A stretch of DNA of 32,812 bases from a bacterium (lineage in GTDB: Bacteria > Hydrothermota > 32-111): positions 1 to 32,812 of the forward strand of contig JAQVDU010000008.1 in NCBI GenBank assembly GCA_028698175.1, read 5' to 3'. Both the position numbers and the translations under genes were made by a program. A model generated the notes under the pieces. It had not been told where the DNA came from and made no database searches. It saw only the letters and a list, made by a program, of their open reading frames with translations. This document shows positions 6,620 to 30,610 of this stretch, piece after piece; positions within the stretch are counted from its first letter, which is position 1, and each line of letters begins with the position of its first letter.

Positions 6620-9589
6620 ATGTCAAGATTTAATGAACTTCTCAAAATAATTCCAGAGACACCCCCCGAAAAATCCGCATGGGGCATGATTCCATTTATA
6701 CTTAAAAAGAGATCTTTGAAAGGAGAGAGGCAGATTATCATTGAGTCCGATTTTGACAAGGCATCTCTTTTAACAGAAAATCTTGAACTCTTCGGCGGCG
6801 ATTCATACCTTTTGGTGGACTCTTCGAATGAGAATTCCGTTTATCAGGCGCTCTGGGGAATTAAGAATAAAATGTCCATTGTTTCTGACTGTGACTTTCT
6901 CAAGCTTAAATTTCCCCATCCGGATATTTTCAAAGAGAGGGGAATTCTCATAAAACGAGGAATGAAGCTTGATATGCCAAGAATGGAGAGCATATTCGAA
7001 TCCTTCTCTGTTGAAAAACAAGACAATGTGTATGAGAGGGGTGAATACGCAGTTAGAGGATTCATACTCGACGTGTACGGAATAGCCGGTCCGCCGGTGA
7101 GAATTGAGCTGTATGATGATACTGTGGAAGATATAAGAGAGATTTCAACGCAGACGCAGGAATCCGTAAATAAGCTTGAAGAATTTTTCATTCCGGAAAA
7201 GTTTTCATCGGATGAGGCGGTGGTTCCGGCATCCGAATTCTTTGAGTCATACAAAACGTACGATATGGAGACTCTCTCTATTGAAAACAATCCCGATTAC
7301 TCAAAGAGCGGGGAACTGAAGCCCCTCTCCCTCGTCTCCGGATCGCTGAGCTCATATTTGGAGGAGAACTACAAAGGCTACAAAGTCTTCATATTCTGCG
7401 CCAATGACTATGAGGAAGAGAGAATAAAAAAGATAACGTCGGTTAATGCTGAGTATTTCAGAGGCAACATTGTATCCGGATTTTCTCTCAATGAAGAAGA
7501 GTGCCTCTTCATAAATGATTTTGAAATATTCTCCAGAAAAAGGTTTTCAAGGTTTTACGAAGTTCCCCTCTCCCCTATAGCTCTTGAGGAGCTTGATTCC
7601 CTTGAAACCGGCGACTTGATAGTCCATCAGACATACGGAGTGGGCAGGTACGCAGGGATAGAGAGGGTCGCCTACGGAGAGAGGTATACGGACTGCATCA
7701 GGATCTTCTATGAGAACAATGACAAGCTCTACGTGCCCATAGACCAGATACGGCTGATAGACAAATACATCGGAGGAAAGGAGAGGGAGCCGAAACTCTC
7801 ATCTCTCTCGAAAAACTCATTTGAAAGACAGAAAGAAAAAGTAAAAGAGTCAGTGAAAAAAATCGCGGGAGAGCTCCTTCGGCTCTATGCGGAAAGGGAG
7901 GTGGTGAAGGGCTTTTCATTTCCCGCAGATGACGAGAAGCAGATAGAGATGGAGGAGATGTTCGAGCATGAAGAGACAAATGACCAGCTGAAGGCCATTG
8001 AAGAGGTCAAGAGAGACATGATGAAGGAAAAGCCGATGGACAGGCTTATATCCGGAGAGGTGGGGTACGGAAAGACCGAGGTGGCGGCGAGAGCCGCTTT
8101 CAAGGCCTATCTCAGCGGCAAACAGACGGCATTCTTAGTGCCCACGACAATTCTCGCCCAGCAGCACTATGAGACCCTTAGGGACCGTCTCCAGAATTTT
8201 CCCGTAAAAATACAAACCCTCTCGCGCTTTCGAAGCGAGAAGGAGAAGAAAGAGATAAAGAAACAGATAAAGGAGGGTGACGTTGACATTGTTATAGGCA
8301 CGCACGCCCTTCTTTCTAGCGACATAGAGTTCTTCGATCTCGGGCTTTACATTGTGGATGAAGAGCACAGGTTCGGAGTCAAGCAGAAAGAAAAGATTAA
8401 AGAGATAAAAAAGAACATTGACGTCCTCGCAATGTCTGCAACACCGATTCCGAGAACTCTTGAGATGGCTCTGACCGGAATAAAGGATATTTCAAACATA
8501 ATGACCCCGCCGGCCGGAAGAAAGGCGATAAAGACATACGTGGTGAAATGGTCTGAAGACACGGTCAAGAGCGCGATTCTCAAAGAGCTCTCGCGGCAGG
8601 GACAGGTTTATTTTCTGCACAACAGGATAGAGACACTTAAAAGCGTAGAAGAGAAGCTTAAAGAACTGCTTTCGGAAGTGAGCATTGTCTCTGTCCATGC
8701 GCAGATGCACTCCTCCGAGATTGAAAAGAAGATGCGCTCCTTCAGGGAGAGAGAGTTCGACCTTCTCCTTTCCACGGCGATAATAGAATCCGGAATAGAC
8801 AATCCCAATGTCAATACGATGGTTATAAACAGGGCTGACATGTTCGGTCTGGCGGAATTGCACCAGCTGAGGGGAAGAATAGGACGGTCCCACAGGGAGG
8901 CATACTGCTATCTTATAGTGCCGGAGAAGGAGAGGATAACGGAAAATGCCAAAAAGCGCCTCTCCGCCTTCAAGTCATACTCCTCTTTGGGGGCAGGAAT
9001 AAACCTCGCCATAAAGGACGTGGAAATGAGGGGCGCCGGAAAGATACTCGGAACAGAGCAGCACGGATTCATAGGAAGCGTGGGATACTCTCTCTATTTT
9101 AAAATCCTGAATGAAGCGATTGACGAGGTTAAGGGAATTAAAAAAGCATCACTTATTGAACCGACGATAAACATCCCGGGGCGCACGTTTGTTCCGGATG
9201 CGTTTAATCTCACCAAGAGCGGCAAGATGAAGCTGTACAGAGATATCTCCATGATAGCAAAGCTTGAAAACGTCGAAAAGGAGAGAGCAAGATTCATTGA
9301 CAGATACGGAAAGATGGTTGAGGAGATAAAAAACATCTTTCTTATGCAGGAGATGAAGATTATCTGCAAGGAGAAGCTTATAGGCAAAGTAGAGATGCTT
9401 GGTCATAACCTTTACATAGAGTTCATGGTCGGATACGAACCCGACTTAAATCTTCTAAGGCCGCTTCTCTCTAAGATTGAAAATCCCATAGAACTCCGCC
9501 ATCAGCCGTCCTTTACGATTGTCGTCAAAGAGGTTGATGCCACTGGGATTTTCGAGTTTTCCAATAAGCTCTTGAAAAGTTTGTTATAA
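6620..9589 (+). CDS. mfd: Transcription-repair coupling factor Mfd
   Basis: RNAP-interaction (CarD-like) region GDLIVHQTYGVGRYAGIE; helicase motifs GEVGYGKTEVAARAAFKA, DEEHRFGV, AMSATPIPRTLEMALTGIKD, QLRGRIGRSHREAYCYL; TRCF C-terminal region. Confidence 0.95.
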   Translation: MSRFNELLKIIPETPPEKSAWGMIPFILKKRSLKGERQIIIESDFDKASLLTENLELFGGDSYLLVDSSNENSVYQALWGIKNKMSIVSDCDFLKLKFPHPDIFKERGILIKRGMKLDMPRMESIFESFSVEKQDNVYERGEYAVRGFILDVYGIAGPPVRIELYDDTVEDIREISTQTQESVNKLEEFFIPEKFSSDEAVVPASEFFESYKTYDMETLSIENNPDYSKSGELKPLSLVSGSLSSYLEENYKGYKVFIFCANDYEEERIKKITSVNAEYFRGNIVSGFSLNEEECLFINDFEIFSRKRFSRFYEVPLSPIALEELDSLETGDLIVHQTYGVGRYAGIERVAYGERYTDCIRIFYENNDKLYVPIDQIRLIDKYIGGKEREPKLSSLSKNSFERQKEKVKESVKKIAGELLRLYAEREVVKGFSFPADDEKQIEMEEMFEHEETNDQLKAIEEVKRDMMKEKPMDRLISGEVGYGKTEVAARAAFKAYLSGKQTAFLVPTTILAQQHYETLRDRLQNFPVKIQTLSRFRSEKEKKEIKKQIKEGDVDIVIGTHALLSSDIEFFDLGLYIVDEEHRFGVKQKEKIKEIKKNIDVLAMSATPIPRTLEMALTGIKDISNIMTPPAGRKAIKTYVVKWSEDTVKSAILKELSRQGQVYFLHNRIETLKSVEEKLKELLSEVSIVSVHAQMHSSEIEKKMRSFREREFDLLLSTAIIESGIDNPNVNTMVINRADMFGLAELHQLRGRIGRSHREAYCYLIVPEKERITENAKKRLSAFKSYSSLGAGINLAIKDVEMRGAGKILGTEQHGFIGSVGYSLYFKILNEAIDEVKGIKKASLIEPTINIPGRTFVPDAFNLTKSGKMKLYRDISMIAKLENVEKERARFIDRYGKMVEEIKNIFLMQEMKIICKEKLIGKVEMLGHNLYIEFMVGYEPDLNLLRPLLSKIENPIELRHQPSFTIVVKEVDATGIFEFSNKLLKSLL

Positions 9590-19106: not shown

Positions 19107-19239
19107 GATATTTCACACCAGCCCCCATAAGCATAATGTTTCAGTTTACACAGATTTATATTTTTTGACTCATTTCTCAGGTATTCTTATATGGAAATAA
19201 ATATATTAAATAAAAATATGAGATATATTAAAATACCTA

Positions 19240-19267
19240 TTGATAAAATTGATTTTTTGGTTATAAT
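19240..19267 (+). promoter_or_regulatory. Promoter of the DUF2089 operon (TTGATA-N16-TATAAT)
   Basis: TTGATA 19240-19245, TATAAT 19262-19267, AAGGAG RBS at 19275, ATG 19287. Confidence 0.6.
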
Positions 19268-19286
19268 GTTTAAAAAGGAGATAAAA

Positions 19287-19658
19287 ATGGCTGAAAACAA
19301 AATTGTAAAAAACTGTCCTGTCTGCGGAGGAGAGATGGTTGTAAAACAACTCCATTGTCCTTCGTGCAAGACTGACATCACTGGAACTTTTTCGACAACC
19401 CTCTCAAACCCTTTTGATGAGGATGAGTGGAAGTTCGTAACAGAGTTCTTGGTGTGTGAAGGAAATCTTAAGTGTCTGTCGGAGAGAATCAATCTTTCCT
19501 ACCCCACCCTTAAAAACAAGCTTCTTAAAATAAAGCAGAAGCTTCCCGGAGGAGACCTTATAATCCGCGAGGAGGTTGATGAGGTTCTTGAACTCATTGA
19601 CAAGGGCGACCCGGAGGCAAAGGAGATGCTTGAAAAACTAAAAAGGAGGATAAAATGA
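19287..19658 (+). CDS. DUF2089-family zinc-ribbon/HTH protein
   Basis: CPVCGGEMVVKQLHCPSCKTDITGTF...FVTEFLVCEGNLKCLSERINLSYPTLKNKL; start after AAGGAG. Confidence 0.85.
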   Translation: MAENKIVKNCPVCGGEMVVKQLHCPSCKTDITGTFSTTLSNPFDEDEWKFVTEFLVCEGNLKCLSERINLSYPTLKNKLLKIKQKLPGGDLIIREEVDEVLELIDKGDPEAKEMLEKLKRRIK

Positions 19659-19960
19659 GAATTTCAAAGTTCGGTCTTCTGCTTGTGATTATAGGAGTCT
19701 TTCTGCTCCTATCAACCTACAACATATCAGTATTCGAGTTCTCAAGGGATTGGCCCTGGATACTCGTCATCATTGGACTCTTTGTGCTTTTAAAGAGAGA
19801 AAACAGGTGCCACAATCCATTTATAAGCATAAATACGGAAAAGAAAGACAAAGAGAAGGAGAAGAGAGAATCGGAAGAGAGAAAGAATATACTCGAGAAA
19901 CTTCAAAAAAATGAGATAACTCTTGAAGAGGCTATGAAAAGAATGAACGGGGAGGAATAA
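19655..19960 (+). CDS. LiaI/LiaF-like TM protein (DUF5668-like) with C-terminal SHOCT-like helix pair
   Basis: Two TM segments (FGLLLVIIGVFLLLS, WPWILVIIGLFVLLKRE) and ILEKLQKNEITLEEAMKRMNG. Confidence 0.75.
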   Translation: MRISKFGLLLVIIGVFLLLSTYNISVFEFSRDWPWILVIIGLFVLLKRENRCHNPFISINTEKKDKEKEKRESEERKNILEKLQKNEITLEEAMKRMNGEE

Positions 19961-20394
19961 TGGACACAAAAATAGAGAAAATCCTCCGCTTGGTGCAGGA
20001 GGGTAAGATGTCGGCAGAAGAGGCAGATTCTCTCCTCGGCCTGCTTAAAATGAAGGACAAAAACTCTAGGCAGGGATGCAACCTCAGAGTGAGGATAATT
20101 AAGGATGACGGAGACGGCGAAAAGAACGTCAATCTTAACCTTCCCATGAGCTTTGTCAAAATGATGGTAAAGGCAACCGGAAAGTTCTCCATCGATTCCA
20201 TGGGAAAGAATAACAGCGTCAAGGAGTCCCTTTCAAACGTCGGACTTAAGTTTGACGAAAACGGAAAGATAGAGGACGTGGAGTCATTTTTAAAGGGTCT
20301 TGACGCCCTGTGCGAGCATTCTCCGATAGACATTGCAAACGTGCAGGTGAGCGACGGAGACGGGGATGTTGACATTAGAATATCAATTGATTGA
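19960..20394 (+). CDS. SHOCT-like-domain protein
   Basis: N-terminal IEKILRLVQEGKMSAEEADSLLGLLKM; ATG overlaps the preceding TAA. Confidence 0.7.
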   Translation: MDTKIEKILRLVQEGKMSAEEADSLLGLLKMKDKNSRQGCNLRVRIIKDDGDGEKNVNLNLPMSFVKMMVKATGKFSIDSMGKNNSVKESLSNVGLKFDENGKIEDVESFLKGLDALCEHSPIDIANVQVSDGDGDVDIRISID

Positions 20395-20414
20395 AGAAGA
20401 GATTGAAGATTCAG

Positions 20415-20448
20415 GCGGAGAGAAGGAAAGACCTCTCTCCGCTCTTTC
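20415..20448 (+). terminator. Intrinsic terminator of the DUF2089 operon
   Basis: GCGGAGAGA ... TCTCTCCGC perfect 9-bp stem followed by TCTTTC. Confidence 0.7.
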
Positions 20449-20460
20449 AAAAGATAAATA

Positions 20461-20488
20461 TTGATTTTTATTTTTCAAGATATATAAT
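20461..20488 (+). promoter_or_regulatory. Promoter of the 16-aa-repeat protein operon (TTGATT-N16-TATAAT)
   Basis: TTGATT 20461-20466; TATAAT 20483-20488. Confidence 0.55.
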
Positions 20489-20556: not shown

Positions 20557-20910
20557 TTGATAACAAGAATCTCTGACGCATCATACAATACTGTAGGGTA
20601 CATCCATGAAAAGGTTATAGAAGATGCTTCATCCTCACCCATCGGCTACATAGAGGGAGGGGCAATCCTCGACGAGCATAAAAATACACTGGGATACCTT
20701 GTATTCGGCAGAATAGAGGATATGCACCATGACCCTCTTGCCTATATGGAGGGAGATACTCTCTCCGATGCGACGCGCACCCCGATAGCATACATTTACA
20801 GCGAGAGGATTGAAGATTCGCTTCACAATACCGTGGGTTACATACACAACAGATGCGATAAGTCATTCATTGCCGTTTTGATTGTCTTCGGCTTTATTTC
20901 ACTTATATAA
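20557..20910 (+). CDS. Small tail-anchored protein of six 16-residue repeats (possible beta-flower/toroid-like fold)
   Basis: Repeats TRISDASYNTVGYIHE / KVIEDASSSPIGYIEG / GAILDEHKNTLGYLVF / GRIEDMHHDPLAYMEG / DTLSDATRTPIAYIYS / ERIEDSLHNTVGYIHN, then C-terminal TM FIAVLIVFGFISLI; TTG start with an upstream purine-rich RBS. Confidence 0.75.
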   Translation: MITRISDASYNTVGYIHEKVIEDASSSPIGYIEGGAILDEHKNTLGYLVFGRIEDMHHDPLAYMEGDTLSDATRTPIAYIYSERIEDSLHNTVGYIHNRCDKSFIAVLIVFGFISLI

Positions 20911-20922
20911 AAGGGAGATTCG

Positions 20923-22920
20923 ATGAAAAAAATCCTTTTGTCTGTTATTGTTTCTCTCGCCGCGCTTTTCCTCTTTTCCCAGAACTTTGATAATTATAAA
21001 ATCTACCTTTGGGACAATGACTACGGTGCCGTATTCGTGAATCCGGACGATGGTCAGACTAACATCGGTTATGAATACAATGTGAAAAAAGCATTGAATA
21101 AGATCGGTTTTGCAGACAATGTGAGGCTCTTTGAGGGTGATACAATGGCCCGCCAGTACACAAAACTCTCCCAGTACGGAGCTGTCTTCATAGTCACAGG
21201 CCACTATCCTGTTGACTACAGGTCTGCCATGTTCACAACTGCCGAAATAGACACTCTCGCAAAGTATCTCAACTGGGGAGGGTGCGTTTATTTTGAAGGC
21301 AACAATGTGATGGAATTTCTAAAACTTAATTTCCCGGTCTTTTATTCGAGGTATTTCAATGACTCTATTGAGGTTGTCGCGCAGAGGTATGCGATAGATT
21401 CTCTGATGACTGACCCGACGAGTTCATTCTGCAGATATTACAGGTTCAACTATCCGGAGTCATCCGTCTCCGATTCCGGAGTCGATTTTCTCGTGACAAG
21501 GGACGGAACACTGCGGGAACCCAACTATTTCAAAGTGCTTTATTTTGACAATCAGTCGAAGCTCTACAAATCAACTGCAACTGCGTACACTCCTCCGGCG
21601 ACAAAGGATGGAAAGTATTTCTATTTTCCAGGTAAGACCTTTGTTCAGTCGGTCGACGTGGGCGCATTCTCATACCAGACATACGGAAGAACCGAACGTC
21701 CACTCCCCGATTCAATAAAGAGTCAGTATATAAGAATGGCTTACCTTAAAGACGTTCTGAGATTCTTCGGAATGGCGCGCACCCTTATAGTTGTGGATGA
21801 CGGCACGACAGCCATAAATGCATCCATTGACAATGCAATGACCCGTCTTGCAAATTATGACAGCATAGTTGTCGCCACACAGGGAGCTCCAATTCACGCC
21901 AACCTTATGCCGTACACTTCTGTCTTCTGGTACACTGACACAATGAATACGACCCTGACTCTGACAGATACTTTAAATCTCGGCGTCTATCTTGATTACG
22001 GAGGAAACCTCTTCCTGGCATCTGATAATTTCGCAGAGCAGTACGGGGCAAACTTTCCATTTCTGACAAAGTATCTCGGAAGCAATTTCGTGGATGACTC
22101 CTTTCCGAATGACACAATCTATGCCTCACTGCAGTCATTCTGGTATTACAATGACGTATCGGACACCTTCAGGATTACAAAGCCGACGAGAGGGTATGAG
22201 CCTGACGTTATCAGAACAGACAATTCGGACGCTGATACTGCATTCTATGTTCTCGGCTCAAGCAGAAACAAGCTTTGCTGCGGGACAAGGTACTCTTCGA
22301 TAACGCATAATTCCATTTTTCTGTCATTTCCATTCCTTAGGGCGCCCTACCAGACAAAGGCAGGATATCCGGTTGATTCCATACTGAAAATCGCTTTAAA
22401 GGTTTACTTTGACTATGACCTTGATTTTGAGACGCATGATTATACATTCTCATCCGAGTGCGACATAGCATTCTCTGTAAGTGAAAAGAGTATTTTCTTC
22501 TATGTGACTCTGAAGAACCCTTCAAATGGAGAGATATCGGTCTTCAGGGATGGCAAGAGAATTGCATATAAACAGACCTCTTCGGATATATCATACTACA
22601 AAATAGATGCCGAAAGATTGAGCGGAGAGTATGAAGTCAAGGTGACGGATTCTTTTGGCTCTGAGATTTCGTCAATAAAAACTATCGTGCCGCCGGTTTC
22701 GTCAAACTCTTTCTCTGCAGGGATAAACAACAAAACTCTTTATTTGAAAGGAACGCCAAACAAGAATTTTTCCGTAGTCAATCTTGCCGGCAGGGAGGTT
22801 CTTAAAGTGACAACGAATGAGTTTGGAGAGTGCAGAGCAGACGTCTCAAAGCTTCCCTCTTCAATCTATTTTGTGAAAGAGGAGAATTCCATTCTGTTTG
22901 TCAAGACAGCCAAACTATGA
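20923..22920 (+). CDS. Large secreted protein with two tandem GATase1-like/Rossmann-like halves and a type IX-like C-terminal sorting domain
   Basis: Signal peptide MKKILLSVIVSLAALFLFS; repeated pattern ...LAKYLNWGGCVYFEGNN... / ...LGVYLDYGGNLFLASDN...; C-terminus SVVNLAGREVLKVTTNEFGECRADVSKLPSSIYFVK. Confidence 0.7.
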   Translation: MKKILLSVIVSLAALFLFSQNFDNYKIYLWDNDYGAVFVNPDDGQTNIGYEYNVKKALNKIGFADNVRLFEGDTMARQYTKLSQYGAVFIVTGHYPVDYRSAMFTTAEIDTLAKYLNWGGCVYFEGNNVMEFLKLNFPVFYSRYFNDSIEVVAQRYAIDSLMTDPTSSFCRYYRFNYPESSVSDSGVDFLVTRDGTLREPNYFKVLYFDNQSKLYKSTATAYTPPATKDGKYFYFPGKTFVQSVDVGAFSYQTYGRTERPLPDSIKSQYIRMAYLKDVLRFFGMARTLIVVDDGTTAINASIDNAMTRLANYDSIVVATQGAPIHANLMPYTSVFWYTDTMNTTLTLTDTLNLGVYLDYGGNLFLASDNFAEQYGANFPFLTKYLGSNFVDDSFPNDTIYASLQSFWYYNDVSDTFRITKPTRGYEPDVIRTDNSDADTAFYVLGSSRNKLCCGTRYSSITHNSIFLSFPFLRAPYQTKAGYPVDSILKIALKVYFDYDLDFETHDYTFSSECDIAFSVSEKSIFFYVTLKNPSNGEISVFRDGKRIAYKQTSSDISYYKIDAERLSGEYEVKVTDSFGSEISSIKTIVPPVSSNSFSAGINNKTLYLKGTPNKNFSVVNLAGREVLKVTTNEFGECRADVSKLPSSIYFVKEENSILFVKTAKL

Positions 22921-23453
22921 TAATAGAAAAGAGAGCAGAAATAATAAAAAAAAAGGCGGAGCTTAACAAAGAAGAGAATGAACTCTTTCTTGAAATGATT
23001 GAGAAAGATTCTTTTGACCTGGCGTTTATTGACGAGAGTGTAAAAAATATATACGGGGAACTAAAGAAAATCATTAAATGCGAGGAGTGCGGAGAGTGCT
23101 GCAGGGAGATAATAGTGGTTTTCGAAGATGAGGATTTGAACAAGCTTGCCGAAGCAGTCAAAGAGGATAGAAAAACCCTCGAAAAGCGTTTGTTTCAGAA
23201 ATATGAAAAATTCAACTGCTTCGTTATGAATCAGTCCCCCTGTCCGTTTCAAAAAGAGAATCTCTGCACCGTCTATGATTACAGGGGAACGGAATGCAGG
23301 GATTTCCCATATCTTGAAAACAGACTGTTTTCAGAGATATACAGGTATGTCTTTCAGGGATACCCTATGTGCCCTTACCATTTCAGTGTGATAGAATCGC
23401 TGAAAGAGGCGCTTCAATTTGAAAACTTAAAGGAAGGAAATTTTGGATCTTAA
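22917..23453 (+). CDS. YkgJ-family cysteine-cluster (Fe/Zn-chelating) protein
   Basis: CEECGECCREI...CPFQKENLCTVYDYRGTECRDFPY; ATGA overlap with upstream gene. Confidence 0.85.
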   Translation: MIIEKRAEIIKKKAELNKEENELFLEMIEKDSFDLAFIDESVKNIYGELKKIIKCEECGECCREIIVVFEDEDLNKLAEAVKEDRKTLEKRLFQKYEKFNCFVMNQSPCPFQKENLCTVYDYRGTECRDFPYLENRLFSEIYRYVFQGYPMCPYHFSVIESLKEALQFENLKEGNFGS

Positions 23454-25428
23454 AAAAGAGAGTCTTTACGCCATACTTGACCTTATAAGCGAACCTGCAA
23501 TCCTTGTGGATGAGCTCGGAAAAATCATCTTTGAAAACAAATCAGCCAAGACCTTTTGCTCAAATAATGATGAAGGCAGAGAATCCTGTTTTGACGTGGC
23601 AGAAAAGATACTTCAGGTTGGAATGAATGAAGGGCAACTGAAAGTAAAACTGCATGACAGAGTTGTTGAAATCCACTTTAAAATAGTCAAGCTTCACGGA
23701 TTCGCCTTTCTTGTCTTCTCTGACATTGAAAAGAGAATAAAGGAACTGAGCGACAAGCTGATAAAGTCGACAAATGAACTTGAATCAATCAATGAGGAAC
23801 TGACATCCGCGGAAGAGGAGGCGAAACGCAGAGAGGATGAAATAAGAAGAAAAAACATTGATTTTGTCAGAAGCGAAGAAAAGTACAAAGCCCTAGCAGA
23901 GACATCCTCTGATATTATAGTGATAGTGGATGAAAAATACCTGGTCAAATACGTGAACTCTTCAGCATTGAGTTACTTTAAAGGTTCAAGGGAGAATGTA
24001 ATCGGAAAGAGCATAAAACAGCTCTTTCCTTATGATGACGAAAAACAGAAGACAGCTCTTATAGATATGGTATTTAAAGAGAAAAAGCAGATGAAATTCG
24101 ATTCTGTGACAGTATTTCCGGACGGAGAGGTGTGGCTGGGGACAAGGCTTGTGCCGCTTTTCGACAGCGAAAAGAAAGTCGAGTCAGTGATGATGATATC
24201 CAGGGATATAACAGAGAGAAAGAGGATAGAGCTTGACAACCTTACTGTCAATGAAAGGTTCGGAAAGGTCTTCAAACATAATCCTTTGGGCATTCTGATA
24301 AGCAGAGCAGAGGACGGACACATAATCGATGCCAATGATTCATGCGAGGCAATCTTCGGATACCCTCCTGAAGAGCTTCTCGGCAGACCTGCGGGAATTC
24401 TTTACGAGAAGCCAGAAGAGAGGGCTTTTTTCGTGGACAGACTTCTAAGAGAGGGTCCGCAGAAAAACTATGAACTGAAGATACGGCGCAAGAACAATGA
24501 GATACGTACTGTTTTTCTTTCTGCAGATTACCTTGAGATAAACGAGGAGAGGTGCATACTGTCGATAATTCAGGACGTAACGGAAGAAGTGATAGCGAAC
24601 AATACGCGGGAAGTCCTCTTTGACATAGCTGACTCGGCATTCAGAGTGAAAGACCTCAGCTCCCTCTATCCTGAGATTCACAAATCCCTGAAAAAGGTGC
24701 TCAATGCCAACAATTTCTATGTGGCTGTCTACGAAAAATCGTCAGACACGATCAATTTTCCGTACTATCATGACGAAAAGGACGATTATGCGCCTTCGAA
24801 AAAATTCGGCAACGGCCTTACGGAGTATGCGCTGAAGAATAAGAAGCCGGTTCTTCTCTCCGGCGAAGAGATAAAAAAAATGGCTGAGAATGGAATCGTG
24901 GAGATAATAGGAACCCTTCCTGTGCAGTGGCTGGGCGTGCCGCTTCTCGGCGAGTCATTCACAGGAGTCCTTGCGGTTCAGCATTATGACGTTAATTACT
25001 CGTATACGCAGAACGACAAAAATATTCTTTACTTTGTTTCCAAGCAGATATCGAGGGGGATAGAAAACAAGGTCAAGGAAGAGCTTCTCATTCAGTCGGA
25101 GCTGAAGCACAGAATGCTTCTCGATTCTATAAAATCTCCGATTCTATCTCTCAGGGAGGATATGGAGATATTCTACTGCAACCAGTCATACGCGGATTTC
25201 GTGGGAAAGAAACTGTCAGACCTTGAAGGAAAGAATCTTTTGGAGATTTTCCCTGATTTTGAAAAGACAAAATCATTTGAGGCATTCAAAAAATGCATGA
25301 AAACTGGAGAGACACAGCAGGTGGAGGGAGAGGTTAAGGGAAAAAATGTCATCATCAATGCGAGAATTTACCGCACAAAGTGGGGAATCCTCTCTGTGGC
25401 TGAATCGATGGCTAAGAAGAGCTCCTGA
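23443..25428 (+). CDS. Multi-PAS/GAF sensor protein without an obvious output domain
   Basis: PAS segments near the N-terminus, around YKALAETSSDIIVIVDEKYLVKYVNSS, FGKVFKHNPLGILISRAEDGHIIDANDSCEAIFGYPPEELLGR (followed by a PAC region) and KHRMLLDSIKSPILSLREDMEIFYCNQSYADFVGK; a GAF segment between them; no H-box, HATPase, GGDEF or HTH seen. Confidence 0.8.
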   Translation: MDLKKESLYAILDLISEPAILVDELGKIIFENKSAKTFCSNNDEGRESCFDVAEKILQVGMNEGQLKVKLHDRVVEIHFKIVKLHGFAFLVFSDIEKRIKELSDKLIKSTNELESINEELTSAEEEAKRREDEIRRKNIDFVRSEEKYKALAETSSDIIVIVDEKYLVKYVNSSALSYFKGSRENVIGKSIKQLFPYDDEKQKTALIDMVFKEKKQMKFDSVTVFPDGEVWLGTRLVPLFDSEKKVESVMMISRDITERKRIELDNLTVNERFGKVFKHNPLGILISRAEDGHIIDANDSCEAIFGYPPEELLGRPAGILYEKPEERAFFVDRLLREGPQKNYELKIRRKNNEIRTVFLSADYLEINEERCILSIIQDVTEEVIANNTREVLFDIADSAFRVKDLSSLYPEIHKSLKKVLNANNFYVAVYEKSSDTINFPYYHDEKDDYAPSKKFGNGLTEYALKNKKPVLLSGEEIKKMAENGIVEIIGTLPVQWLGVPLLGESFTGVLAVQHYDVNYSYTQNDKNILYFVSKQISRGIENKVKEELLIQSELKHRMLLDSIKSPILSLREDMEIFYCNQSYADFVGKKLSDLEGKNLLEIFPDFEKTKSFEAFKKCMKTGETQQVEGEVKGKNVIINARIYRTKWGILSVAESMAKKSS

Positions 25429-25431
25429 CAG

Positions 25432-26670
25432 ATGAATGTCTTTCCGCTTGTATTGGTTTTTATTGTTCTTCTGGCGACAGCGGCAAGAACGTACCTTCCC
25501 TTCAAAATTGAAATATGGGCCATAATGCTCTTTGCTGCCATCCTTGCAGTTCTTTCGCGCTCCATAGGAATCATGGATGCGGCAAAATCCATATCTTTGG
25601 ATGTGATGCTCTTTCTTTTTTTCATGTTCATTCTGGGAGAGGTTCTTGAGGAGAGCGGATTTCTTTACGTTCTTGAATACAAAATCTTCAGCGGCGCGAA
25701 GAGCAGAGAGAGGATTCTTTTATATGCCATATTCTCAATGGCTCTTCTCTCATACTTTTTTATGAATGACACAATAGCTGTCATAGGAACCCCTCTGATG
25801 CTCTTTCTTGCAAAGAGACACTCTATGAATCATAAAATGCTTCTTCTCACCCTTGCGTTTTCCATAACGATAGGGAGCGTAGCAAGTCCGATAGGCAATC
25901 CGCAAAATCTCCTCATAGCAGTCAGGTCCGGAATAAATGAACCGTTTTCGGAATTTGCAAAATACCTGCTGATACCTTCGGCAATAAACCTTTTCGCTCT
26001 CTTCATCGTCATAAAAATTTTCTACAGAGAGGAATTTGAAAAAACGGATGCGCTCAACCATGAAAAAAGAGAGGTTGGGGACTATGCTATGTACGGATAT
26101 GCAAAGGTTTCAGTGCTTATTCTTGTCATCGTTCTTATCGCATGGATTCTTTCGAGGTTTCTCTTCCGCGGAACGGATATACCCCTCTATGCTATACCAA
26201 TACTTCCTGCATTGTACGGTCTCGCGTCGTCAAAGAGAAAGAAAAAGATTATCGGGCGTATAGATTACAAAACCCTGCTCTTTTTTGCGGGTATGTTTGT
26301 TTTAATGAAGGCTCTGTACATAAACGGAGAGCCGAAGATCCTCTTTGATGCGGCGCAGAAAGCTGTGAATGTTCCGACGACTCTTGCTCTGAGCATATTT
26401 ATAAGCCAGATAATATCCAATGTTCCGTTTGTAGCGCTCTTCCTTGACGCAATAAAATCAACGGGCGGTAATGAGATTCTCATGGCTCTTGCCGCAGGGA
26501 GCACCATTGCAGGAAATCTATTCATACTCGGAGCGGCAAGCAATGTGATAATAATACAGAGAGCGGAAAGAGAGGGCAAGACCCTCTCTTTCCTTGAATT
26601 TTCAAAATGCGGAATTCTTCTTACGGTTGTTAATTTTCTGGTCTATTGGGCATATTTTTCTTTGATATGA
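25432..26670 (+). CDS. SLC13/ArsB/NhaD-superfamily anion permease
   Basis: Multi-TM; MNDTIAVIGTPLML, IGSVASPIGNPQNLLIAV, SNVPFVALFLDAI, AGSTIAGNLFILGAASNVI. Confidence 0.85.
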   Translation: MNVFPLVLVFIVLLATAARTYLPFKIEIWAIMLFAAILAVLSRSIGIMDAAKSISLDVMLFLFFMFILGEVLEESGFLYVLEYKIFSGAKSRERILLYAIFSMALLSYFFMNDTIAVIGTPLMLFLAKRHSMNHKMLLLTLAFSITIGSVASPIGNPQNLLIAVRSGINEPFSEFAKYLLIPSAINLFALFIVIKIFYREEFEKTDALNHEKREVGDYAMYGYAKVSVLILVIVLIAWILSRFLFRGTDIPLYAIPILPALYGLASSKRKKKIIGRIDYKTLLFFAGMFVLMKALYINGEPKILFDAAQKAVNVPTTLALSIFISQIISNVPFVALFLDAIKSTGGNEILMALAAGSTIAGNLFILGAASNVIIIQRAEREGKTLSFLEFSKCGILLTVVNFLVYWAYFSLI

Positions 26671-27925: not shown

Positions 27926-27952
27926 TTGGGACAGTACTTCGTGCTGTCCCCA
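27926..27952 (+). repeat. REP-like palindrome, copy 2 (forward)
   Basis: TTGGGACAGTACTTCGTGCTGTCCCCA. Confidence 0.85.
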
Positions 27953-28031
27953 TACACCTCCGTCGGGACGCTTCGCCTGCCGTCCTCGCCGGCTTATAGC
28001 TTTCACTTTCAATAAGTATTGAATTCTGTTG

Positions 28032-28058
28032 TGGGGACAGTACTTCGTGCTGTCCCCA
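28032..28058 (+). repeat. REP-like palindrome, copy 3 (forward)
   Basis: TGGGGACAGTACTTCGTGCTGTCCCCA; 12-bp stem with one T.G pair and TTC loop. Confidence 0.9.
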
Positions 28059-28107
28059 ACCTTTGGTTTATGACAAATGGAGCCGGGGACTCCATAATAG
28101 AGGGAGC

Positions 28108-28146
28108 GGGTTGACCAAAAGTTTTAGAAGATTGTTGTAAAGACAA
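28108..28146 (+). repeat. Conserved non-coding repeat, copy 2 (GGGTTGACCAAAAGTTTTAGAAGATTGTTGTAAAGACAA)
   Basis: Matches 5954-5993 with only a few differences. Confidence 0.8.
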
Positions 28147-28197
28147 GTCACTTAATCATATGTGATACCAGGATGTGATTAATAACTTCTCTTTACA
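28136..28197. repeat. Nested inverted repeat / stem-loop
   Basis: Outer TGTAAAGA/TCTTTACA, inner TTAATCATAT/ATGTGATTAA (one mismatch). Confidence 0.7.
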
Positions 28198-28255
28198 GAT
28201 ACTCATGAGAAACCTGGCATTAGCGCTATGCAGTACCGATGTTTCATATGATTAT

Positions 28256-28282
28256 TGGGGACAGCACGAAGTACTGTCCCCA
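28256..28282 (-). repeat. REP-like palindrome, copy 4 (reverse)
   Basis: TGGGGACAGCACGAAGTACTGTCCCCA is the exact reverse complement of copy 3. Confidence 0.9.
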
Positions 28283-28323
28283 CAGAAGTATTGATGCACG
28301 TAAGCTCTAAGTGCATATAATAT

Positions 28324-28350
28324 TGGGGACAGCACAAAGTACTGTCCCCA
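28324..28350 (-). repeat. REP-like palindrome, copy 5 (reverse)
   Basis: TGGGGACAGCACAAAGTACTGTCCCCA; one loop difference from copy 4. Confidence 0.9.
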
Positions 28351-29598: not shown

Positions 29599-29973
29599 AT
29601 GAAAAAAATATTGACGGTTCTTTTAACAGCGGCTCTTATACTTTCTAGCGTCTTTGTGCTGGCTGAAGAGAATAAAGAGCTGAACAAAGAGAATTCAGAA
29701 GAGCTCAATCAGGAAAAAGAAGAGAATAAAGGAACAACTGAAAACAAGGAACAGAACAAAAACCTTGAGCAGAACAGAATCAAAAATCAGGAGAAAAACT
29801 TTGTCGACGAAGACGGAGACGGAATATGCGACAATGCCAAGGACGGCGACGGAGAGAAGAACATGTATCAGCACAGAAACCAGAACCAGACGAGGAATCA
29901 GAATAACAATGACAACAGCACAAACGGCAAGACCCAGAGAAAGGGCGATGACAACAAGCCAGGCAAAAAATAG
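29599..29973 (+). CDS. Small secreted E/K/N/Q-rich protein with one DxDxDG Ca-binding-like motif
   Basis: Signal peptide MKKILTVLLTAALILSSVFVLA; FVDEDGDGICDNAKDGDG; strong AAGGAGG RBS. Confidence 0.75.
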   Translation: MKKILTVLLTAALILSSVFVLAEENKELNKENSEELNQEKEENKGTTENKEQNKNLEQNRIKNQEKNFVDEDGDGICDNAKDGDGEKNMYQHRNQNQTRNQNNNDNSTNGKTQRKGDDNKPGKK

Positions 29974-30610
29974 TCCTCACACTCCCTTTTTTAATATAAC
30001 TCAAGCCTTGAGGGGACAATGGTCCCCTCTCGGTCTTTTTCTGACCATTGTTTTTTCAGTTTCGCTCTCTGCGAACTCTTCACCGTCGGACGCCACATCT
30101 TTTATCGGTTACAGGGATGAAAACAGAGACGGGGTCAATGATATTTACTGCGACAAAAACGGAGACGGAATCAATGATGTTGACGGAAAAGAGATATTTC
30201 TGAAGGTGAAATACGAAGACAATGACAATGACAACAGAAATGACCTCTTTATAGACGAGGACGGAGACGGAGTCAATGACGTTTATTTGATGTCAAACAG
30301 TATGCCTGTAATAGACAATGACAATGACAAAATTAACGATATAACCGGAATAAAATACAAGAAGGGATTCTACAGCGGGTCGCTCTTCGGTCTTGCCATT
30401 GAAGAGAAGGGGCTCTGGCTTGAAGATTTTAGGGATGATGACAGCGATTTCTGCGACGATGAAGTCAAAGCCGAAATTATTAAAGACAAAAACGACGTCT
30501 TTAAGGATGAGGACGGAGACGGAATAAGCGATGACAGGGAGAGCGTAATGAATAAGAGACGTTACCGCTCCATATTCAAAAGAGTGATCAAAAAGGGGAA
30601 GAACAAGTGA
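29948..30610 (+). CDS. Secreted thrombospondin type 3-like / DxDxDG repeat protein
   Basis: Hydrophobic signal LGLFLTIVFSVSLSA followed by DENRDGVNDIYCDKNGDGINDVDG, DNDNDNRNDLFIDEDGDGVND, DNDNDKINDI, KDEDGDGISDDRE. Start uncertain (ATG 29948 or a later in-frame TTG near 30008); the first 61 codons of the supplied ORF overlap 29599 out of frame and are unlikely to be used. Confidence 0.7.
   Translation: MTTSQAKNSPHTPFFNITQALRGQWSPLGLFLTIVFSVSLSANSSPSDATSFIGYRDENRDGVNDIYCDKNGDGINDVDGKEIFLKVKYEDNDNDNRNDLFIDEDGDGVNDVYLMSNSMPVIDNDNDKINDITGIKYKKGFYSGSLFGLAIEEKGLWLEDFRDDDSDFCDDEVKAEIIKDKNDVFKDEDGDGISDDRESVMNKRRYRSIFKRVIKKGKNK
30010..30056 (+). promoter_or_regulatory. Two overlapping, mutually exclusive hairpins; the second resembles an intrinsic terminator
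   Basis: Hairpin A GAGGGGAC-AATG-GTCCCCTC (30010-30029); hairpin B CAATGGTC...GACCATTG (30017-30050) followed by TTTTTT. Confidence 0.55.

Follow-up and report, generated by a model that had tools for sequence, protein, structure and literature searches.

Organization of the locus

The gene described here lies in a stretch of 32,812 nucleotides, called the window below. Its features and those of its neighbors are listed in Table 1. The TTG start codon is preceded by a Shine-Dalgarno-like AGAAGG in the window and by AAGGAG in the ortholog of a same-genus relative (L025), where the promoter-like block upstream of the gene is also conserved. The terminator-like hairpin located farther upstream was absent from the list produced by a simple terminator scan. 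Since this hairpin and the conserved promoter-like block stand in between, the LiaF/SHOCT operon is probably a transcription unit separate from the beta-flower gene, which in turn is probably co-transcribed with the cluster that follows it, as far as can be read from the sequence.

Table 1. Features at and around the beta-flower gene in the window
Feature	Positions	Strand	Details and basis
Gene for the predicted six-fold beta-flower protein	20557..20910	+	117 aa, TTG start; ORF, Pfam, orthologs, dN/dS
Six 16-residue units (residues 3-98), predicted as one beta-hairpin each, twelve strands in total	20563..20850	+	Repeat test, AF2
Linker and hydrophobic C-terminal tail (residues 99-117), predicted helix 102-111	20851..20907	+	AF2 model, divergent members
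DUF2089, LiaF-TM and SHOCT-like genes, upstream	19191..20394	+	Pfam; probably a separate operon
Terminator-like hairpin with weak T tail, between the SHOCT and beta-flower genes	20414..20443	+	MFE -20.2 kcal/mol, z -3.67 vs shuffles
Promoter-like TTGATT-N16-TATAAT upstream of the beta-flower gene	20461..20488	+	10/12 consensus matches; consensus match only
Genes for a 665-aa secreted protein, a YkgJ-like CxxCxxCC protein, a PAS/GAF protein and a CitMHS/ArsB permease	20923..26670	+	Pfam; 12-bp gap

The secreted 665-aa protein (20923-22917) has a weak Por_Secre_tail-like C terminus that scored below the cut-off, and two to four places matching this protein family are found per genome of the same taxonomic family. 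A 25-bp imperfect palindrome, GGGGACAGCAC(G/A)AAGTACTGTCCCC, occurs four times, twice in each orientation, in a gene-free part of the window (27927-28349). Elsewhere in the genome, contig 94 has two exact copies and contig 109 has one, and the palindrome looks like a REP-type element. DxDGDG-type calcium-binding motifs abound in two adjoining, overlapping ORFs at 29599-30610, the first of which has a signal peptide and is very rich in N, Q and E.

Six in-register repeats of 16 residues

Residues 3-98 of the protein consist of six 16-residue units that follow one another without any indel (TRISDASYNTVGYIHE, KVIEDASSSPIGYIEG, GAILDEHKNTLGYLVF, GRIEDMHHDPLAYMEG, DTLSDATRTPIAYIYS and ERIEDSLHNTVGYIHN), and the sequence then ends in RCDKSFIAVLIVFGFISLI. 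Such an in-register repeat had been proposed in the first-pass annotation, and the repeat test bore it out, with a BLOSUM62 sum-of-pairs score of 402 for the six units compared with a mean of -224 (sd 33) for shuffled sequences and -66 for the best of 5000 shuffles. The six-unit structure is far beyond chance. When the protein was compared with itself, the score exceeded zero at lags 16 and 32 only. Identity between units of the window protein ranges from 12 to 62% at the amino acid level and from 33 to 54% at the DNA level, which argues that the repeat is old and has been maintained at the protein level. Comparison with the same-genus ortholog gave a dN/dS of ~0.06, with dS near saturation. 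The proposed unit consensus also agreed with the counts at its Asp, Tyr and Gly/Ala positions: among 54 units pooled from nine members, position 5 is Asp in 49 and Asn in 5, position 12 is Gly or Ala in 53, and position 13 is Tyr in 45.

Relatives in the phylum

The Pfam family PF21785 was found in 9 of the 148 genomes of the phylum, over the cut-off in 8. Four orthologs of the window protein (L025-L028), sharing 57-77% identity with it, came from a profile search of genome contigs that succeeded when the four-ortholog alignment was the query, while a single-protein query gave no match. Ten members were read in all, the paralog from the same genome included. Across the five close orthologs, similarity is 48-68 with the units in register and 22-33 for rotations, indicating that the order of the units is old as well.

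The paralog (G000 contig 110, 2866-3216; L016) adjoins radical-SAM and AddAB-like genes and is made of six nearly identical units (DDHNSRIGYIDG), with a mean between-unit identity of 66% for amino acids and 70% for DNA. A basic flower of six units, net +7 and with full DxNG hairpin-tip motifs, is encoded in G087 (contig 1, 107633-107968; L036 5634-5969), and its units are 63% identical in DNA. These values suggest recent re-amplification or homogenization of the units in both proteins, the count still being six. The G087 flower scores below the PF21785 cut-off and possibly bridges the Pfam beta-flower families.

Assignment to the beta-flower family

The name of the beta-flower fold dates from 2023 and from Durairaj et al. 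(PMC10584680), who described four-, five- and six-fold flowers, many of them with a C-terminal hydrophobic helix. No function is given in that paper, and further literature searches likewise found none. Three Pfam families were built for 4-, 5- and 6-fold flowers. The window protein scored 82.6 bits with PF21785 (Bflower_2), ~45 bits over the cut-off of 38, and this cut-off was passed by every beta-flower relative in one Pfam scan of relatives. The match to the 4-fold family PF21784 (Bflower) was weak, although over the cut-off (29.7 bits, cut-off 25), and the window protein differs from that family in having six units instead of four and in scoring far below its PF21785 value. Membership of PF21786 (Bflower_3), which belongs to the same clan, CL0395, was rejected, no profile match being present in the window protein or among 31 of the phylum's genomes. 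The window protein had no Pfam match to the Tubby or LOR families up to E = 10 and no match in a PDB sequence search, and NCBIfam and PHROGs returned sub-threshold noise only. Searches for viral and plasmid relatives found none, and a viral fold library held no convincing match to the model.

With these two Pfam scores and a confident 12-strand AF2 model, the beta-flower assignment that had been put forward as a candidate was upheld, and the window protein is very likely, in family as in fold, a six-fold beta-flower of PF21785 (Tubby-like clan CL0395). It adds a member to a fold that had been described before. The six-fold form was already known (PMC10584680), so that the symmetry is less notable than the first-pass annotation had supposed. 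That annotation had also considered that the protein might fall in an already characterized repeat family of known function; the first half of this applies, as the family is described, and the second does not, as no function is known for it.

Like PF21785 flowers (PMC10584680), the window protein scores above the curated cut-off, is built of hairpin repeats, carries a C-terminal hydrophobic helix and has no known function. It departs from the "5-fold" label of that family, since it consists of six 16-residue units, as do all ten members inspected. Its turns are of 4 and 2 residues, compared with loops of 9 and 4 residues in the type example, and it is acidic, whereas some loops of the type example are rich in Arg and Lys (PMC10584680). 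The hairpin-tip motif [DNEQ]xxG, semiconserved in beta-flowers, is represented by Asp or Asn at position 5 in 54 of 54 units, with Gly three residues on in 7 of 54. Positions 3, 19 or 35 of the PF21785 profile pair with residue 4 of different members, and residues 4-106 of the paralog align to profile positions 3-105; the profile appears to be 16-periodic and to span six units. It is therefore the "5-fold" name, and not the membership, that looks inexact for these members.

Predicted structure and probable closure of the ring

AF2 was run with an alignment of five sequences, the window protein and its four orthologs. The full-length model (pLDDT 93.3, pTM 0.83) has twelve strands and a 10-residue helix at residues 102-111, each unit being laid out as a 4-residue strand, a 4-residue turn, a strand of 5-6 residues and a 2-residue turn. 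Residues 1-98 modeled alone gave a pLDDT of 94.2 and a pTM of 0.74, so that here too the repeats were predicted with confidence and not as disordered, in line with the first-pass proposal.

A search for related folds had been suggested there as well. The top Foldseek match in the PDB was 1zxu (Arabidopsis At5g01750), far ahead of the others by probability (probability 0.98, E 0.046, TM 0.53 of the query, rmsd 7.9 Å), although with this E value and rmsd the match taken alone is suggestive only. The same Tubby/LURP-one structure was set beside a beta-flower for comparison in PMC10584680. With the tail-less model (residues 1-98), 1zxu was absent among the best 50 Foldseek matches listed, indicating that the match depends on the helix. 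The window protein resembles the Tubby C-terminal domain, LURP-one and phospholipid scramblase (1zxu, 2FIM, PLSCR1) in its predicted twelve short strands and hydrophobic helix, which is buried in those proteins and presumably in this one. It differs from them in lacking their profile match and in being far smaller, and the entry of the helix is different in beta-flowers (PMC10584680).

The number of units is exactly six, with no indels, in all ten members inspected. Because the count stays at six even where units have been re-amplified or homogenized, a closed ring is favored over an open solenoid, and on the model the hairpins very probably close into one shallow symmetric ring, a "tiny flower-shaped barrel." Short tandem units taken alone would also permit a chain without a closed fold, either an open beta-solenoid or a disordered low-complexity repeat, but this is hard to reconcile with pLDDT values of 93-94 across the repeats, with the PF21785 match and with the fixed number of units, and this already largely refuted reading deserves almost no credence.

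The C-terminal tail

PLSCR1 was long drawn with a C-terminal transmembrane helix. It is now modeled as a 12-stranded barrel in which the C-terminal hydrophobic helix is buried (PMC10371867). A hydrophobic C-terminal segment is present in all ten beta-flower members inspected, and in the window protein it had been taken for a single transmembrane anchor. The six hairpins would then be cytoplasmic and the last 16-19 residues would span the inner membrane. Residues 103-117 of the window protein are indeed without charge and hydrophobicity peaks at the extreme C terminus (Kyte-Doolittle 19-residue mean 1.73), while the last 15 residues are wholly uncharged in the five closest orthologs, which would also suit a short membrane insertion. 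However, the modeled helix is just 10 residues long, and four divergent members have a nonpolar run of 8-9 residues (ILVGIILF, IITVALLIF, IITAALLIF and IVIAVCILF) with K or E immediately after it, so that a helix able to span the bilayer was not found. The pTM is also higher with the tail included (0.83 compared with 0.74 without), and the equivalent helix is buried in published flowers and in PLSCR1 (PMC10584680, PMC10371867). The hydrophobic tail thus stands but the anchor is not supported: given the helix length, the K or E of the divergent members and the pTM, it was rejected as the main explanation, and a tail-anchored protein is unlikely. Given the shortness of the helix, the small nonpolar core followed by K or E and the gain in pTM, the tail is most likely, by the model and by analogy, a helix that plugs the barrel.

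Proposed mechanism and possible functions

Overall, a six-fold beta-flower ring plugged by its own helix is, with good probability, the best explanation. The six hairpins would close into a single shallow ring with the conserved Tyr and Ile side chains facing inward, and the C-terminal helix, like that of Tubby and PLSCR1, would plug this ring by threading into it and would not cross the membrane. The protein would be cytoplasmic, as a signal peptide is absent, although this step is less certain. It might act as a small rigid binding module whose hairpin loops are offered to a partner, be it a protein, a lipid or a ligand, and it could possibly be seated on the inner-membrane surface through an exposed hydrophobic C-terminal tip, GFISLI; a role in binding at the membrane surface is a tentative suggestion that may well prove wrong. 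Since the ring would be self-plugged, a pore or an enzyme is unlikely. The barrel is acidic (net -10 in the window protein, -8 to -12 across nine acidic members). A basic lipid-binding surface like that of the Tubby, LURP-one and scramblase proteins is consequently not expected, and Tubby-style binding of anionic lipid headgroups is disfavored.

The charge could be given a different meaning if the near-invariant Asp at position 5 lined one rim with six acidic side chains, forming a ring that binds Ca2+ or other divalent cations and regulates attachment. The pooled counts at that position (49 Asp and 5 Asn in 54) and the negative charge of all nine acidic members are in its favor. An Asp at a tight hairpin can, however, be purely structural and cap the turn, and the G087 flower has Asp in all six units and yet a positive net charge, so that a metal ring with such a role is improbable. 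The ring of Asp residues as such may serve to cap the turns or may be a cation site.

The gene neighborhood was compared across relatives. L025, from the same genus, keeps the five-gene order that runs from the beta-flower gene to the permease gene. In the sister genus (L026, L027 and L028), the beta-flower gene lies between genes for a small signal-peptide protein with hydrophobic segments and for a secreted metallophosphoesterase, the ortholog of the 665-aa protein is encoded elsewhere, and no YkgJ, PAS or permease neighbors are present in the two genomes checked. In a third family, the gene follows birA in three genomes. The operon with secreted, YkgJ, PAS/GAF and permease genes noted in the first pass thus extends to L025 but is not conserved in the sister genus. 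Since neighbors differ between genera, the tally of neighborhoods gave no consistent functional partner. DUF2089/LiaF/SHOCT genes were not found beside the beta-flower gene in the relatives inspected (in L025, the upstream sequence is 385 bp), and with a hairpin and a promoter-like block in between, the membrane-stress context that had been drawn from them carries little weight for function. Neither the operon nor the LiaF/SHOCT neighbor was accepted as a guide to function, given that neighbors vary and that the genes upstream probably form an operon of their own. The protein could still act in a membrane-stress response as an operon-specific partner, either of the 665-aa protein or of the products of the PAS/permease genes, as the gap of 12 bp before the 665-aa gene and the order conserved within the genus would allow, but the metallophosphoesterase neighbor and relocated 665-aa gene of the sister genus, the birA neighbor of the third family and the probable separateness of the stress operon make this highly improbable.

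The sister-genus arrangement forms a three-gene cassette (small secreted/membrane protein, beta-flower, secreted calcineurin-like phosphoesterase) located at L028 7535-9657, L026 7554-9657 and L027 7538-9610. A homolog of its first gene in G001 adjoins yajC, without a beta-flower. In L027, an in-frame TAA falls within the homologous part of this first gene (7538-7981) and may reflect either a pseudogene or an assembly error.

Implications for beta-flower evolution

The beta-flower of the window is very simple: each hairpin takes up 16 residues, the six-fold repetition is exact and the whole protein measures 117 aa. Hydrophobic tails of beta-flowers are easily annotated as transmembrane anchors, a natural misreading that is corrected here. 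Together with its internally repetitive paralog, the window protein is a good target for a first crystal structure and for the question of the helix as plug. We also propose, speculatively, that closure is a hard constraint: at least two lineages have re-amplified or homogenized their units (63-70% DNA identity) and yet end at six, so that these proteins would record how a closed ring was rebuilt repeatedly from a single hairpin, the six-Asp ring being a possible cation site. If this were true, the clade would lend itself naturally to studies of the evolution of symmetric repeat barrels and of what beta-flowers bind.
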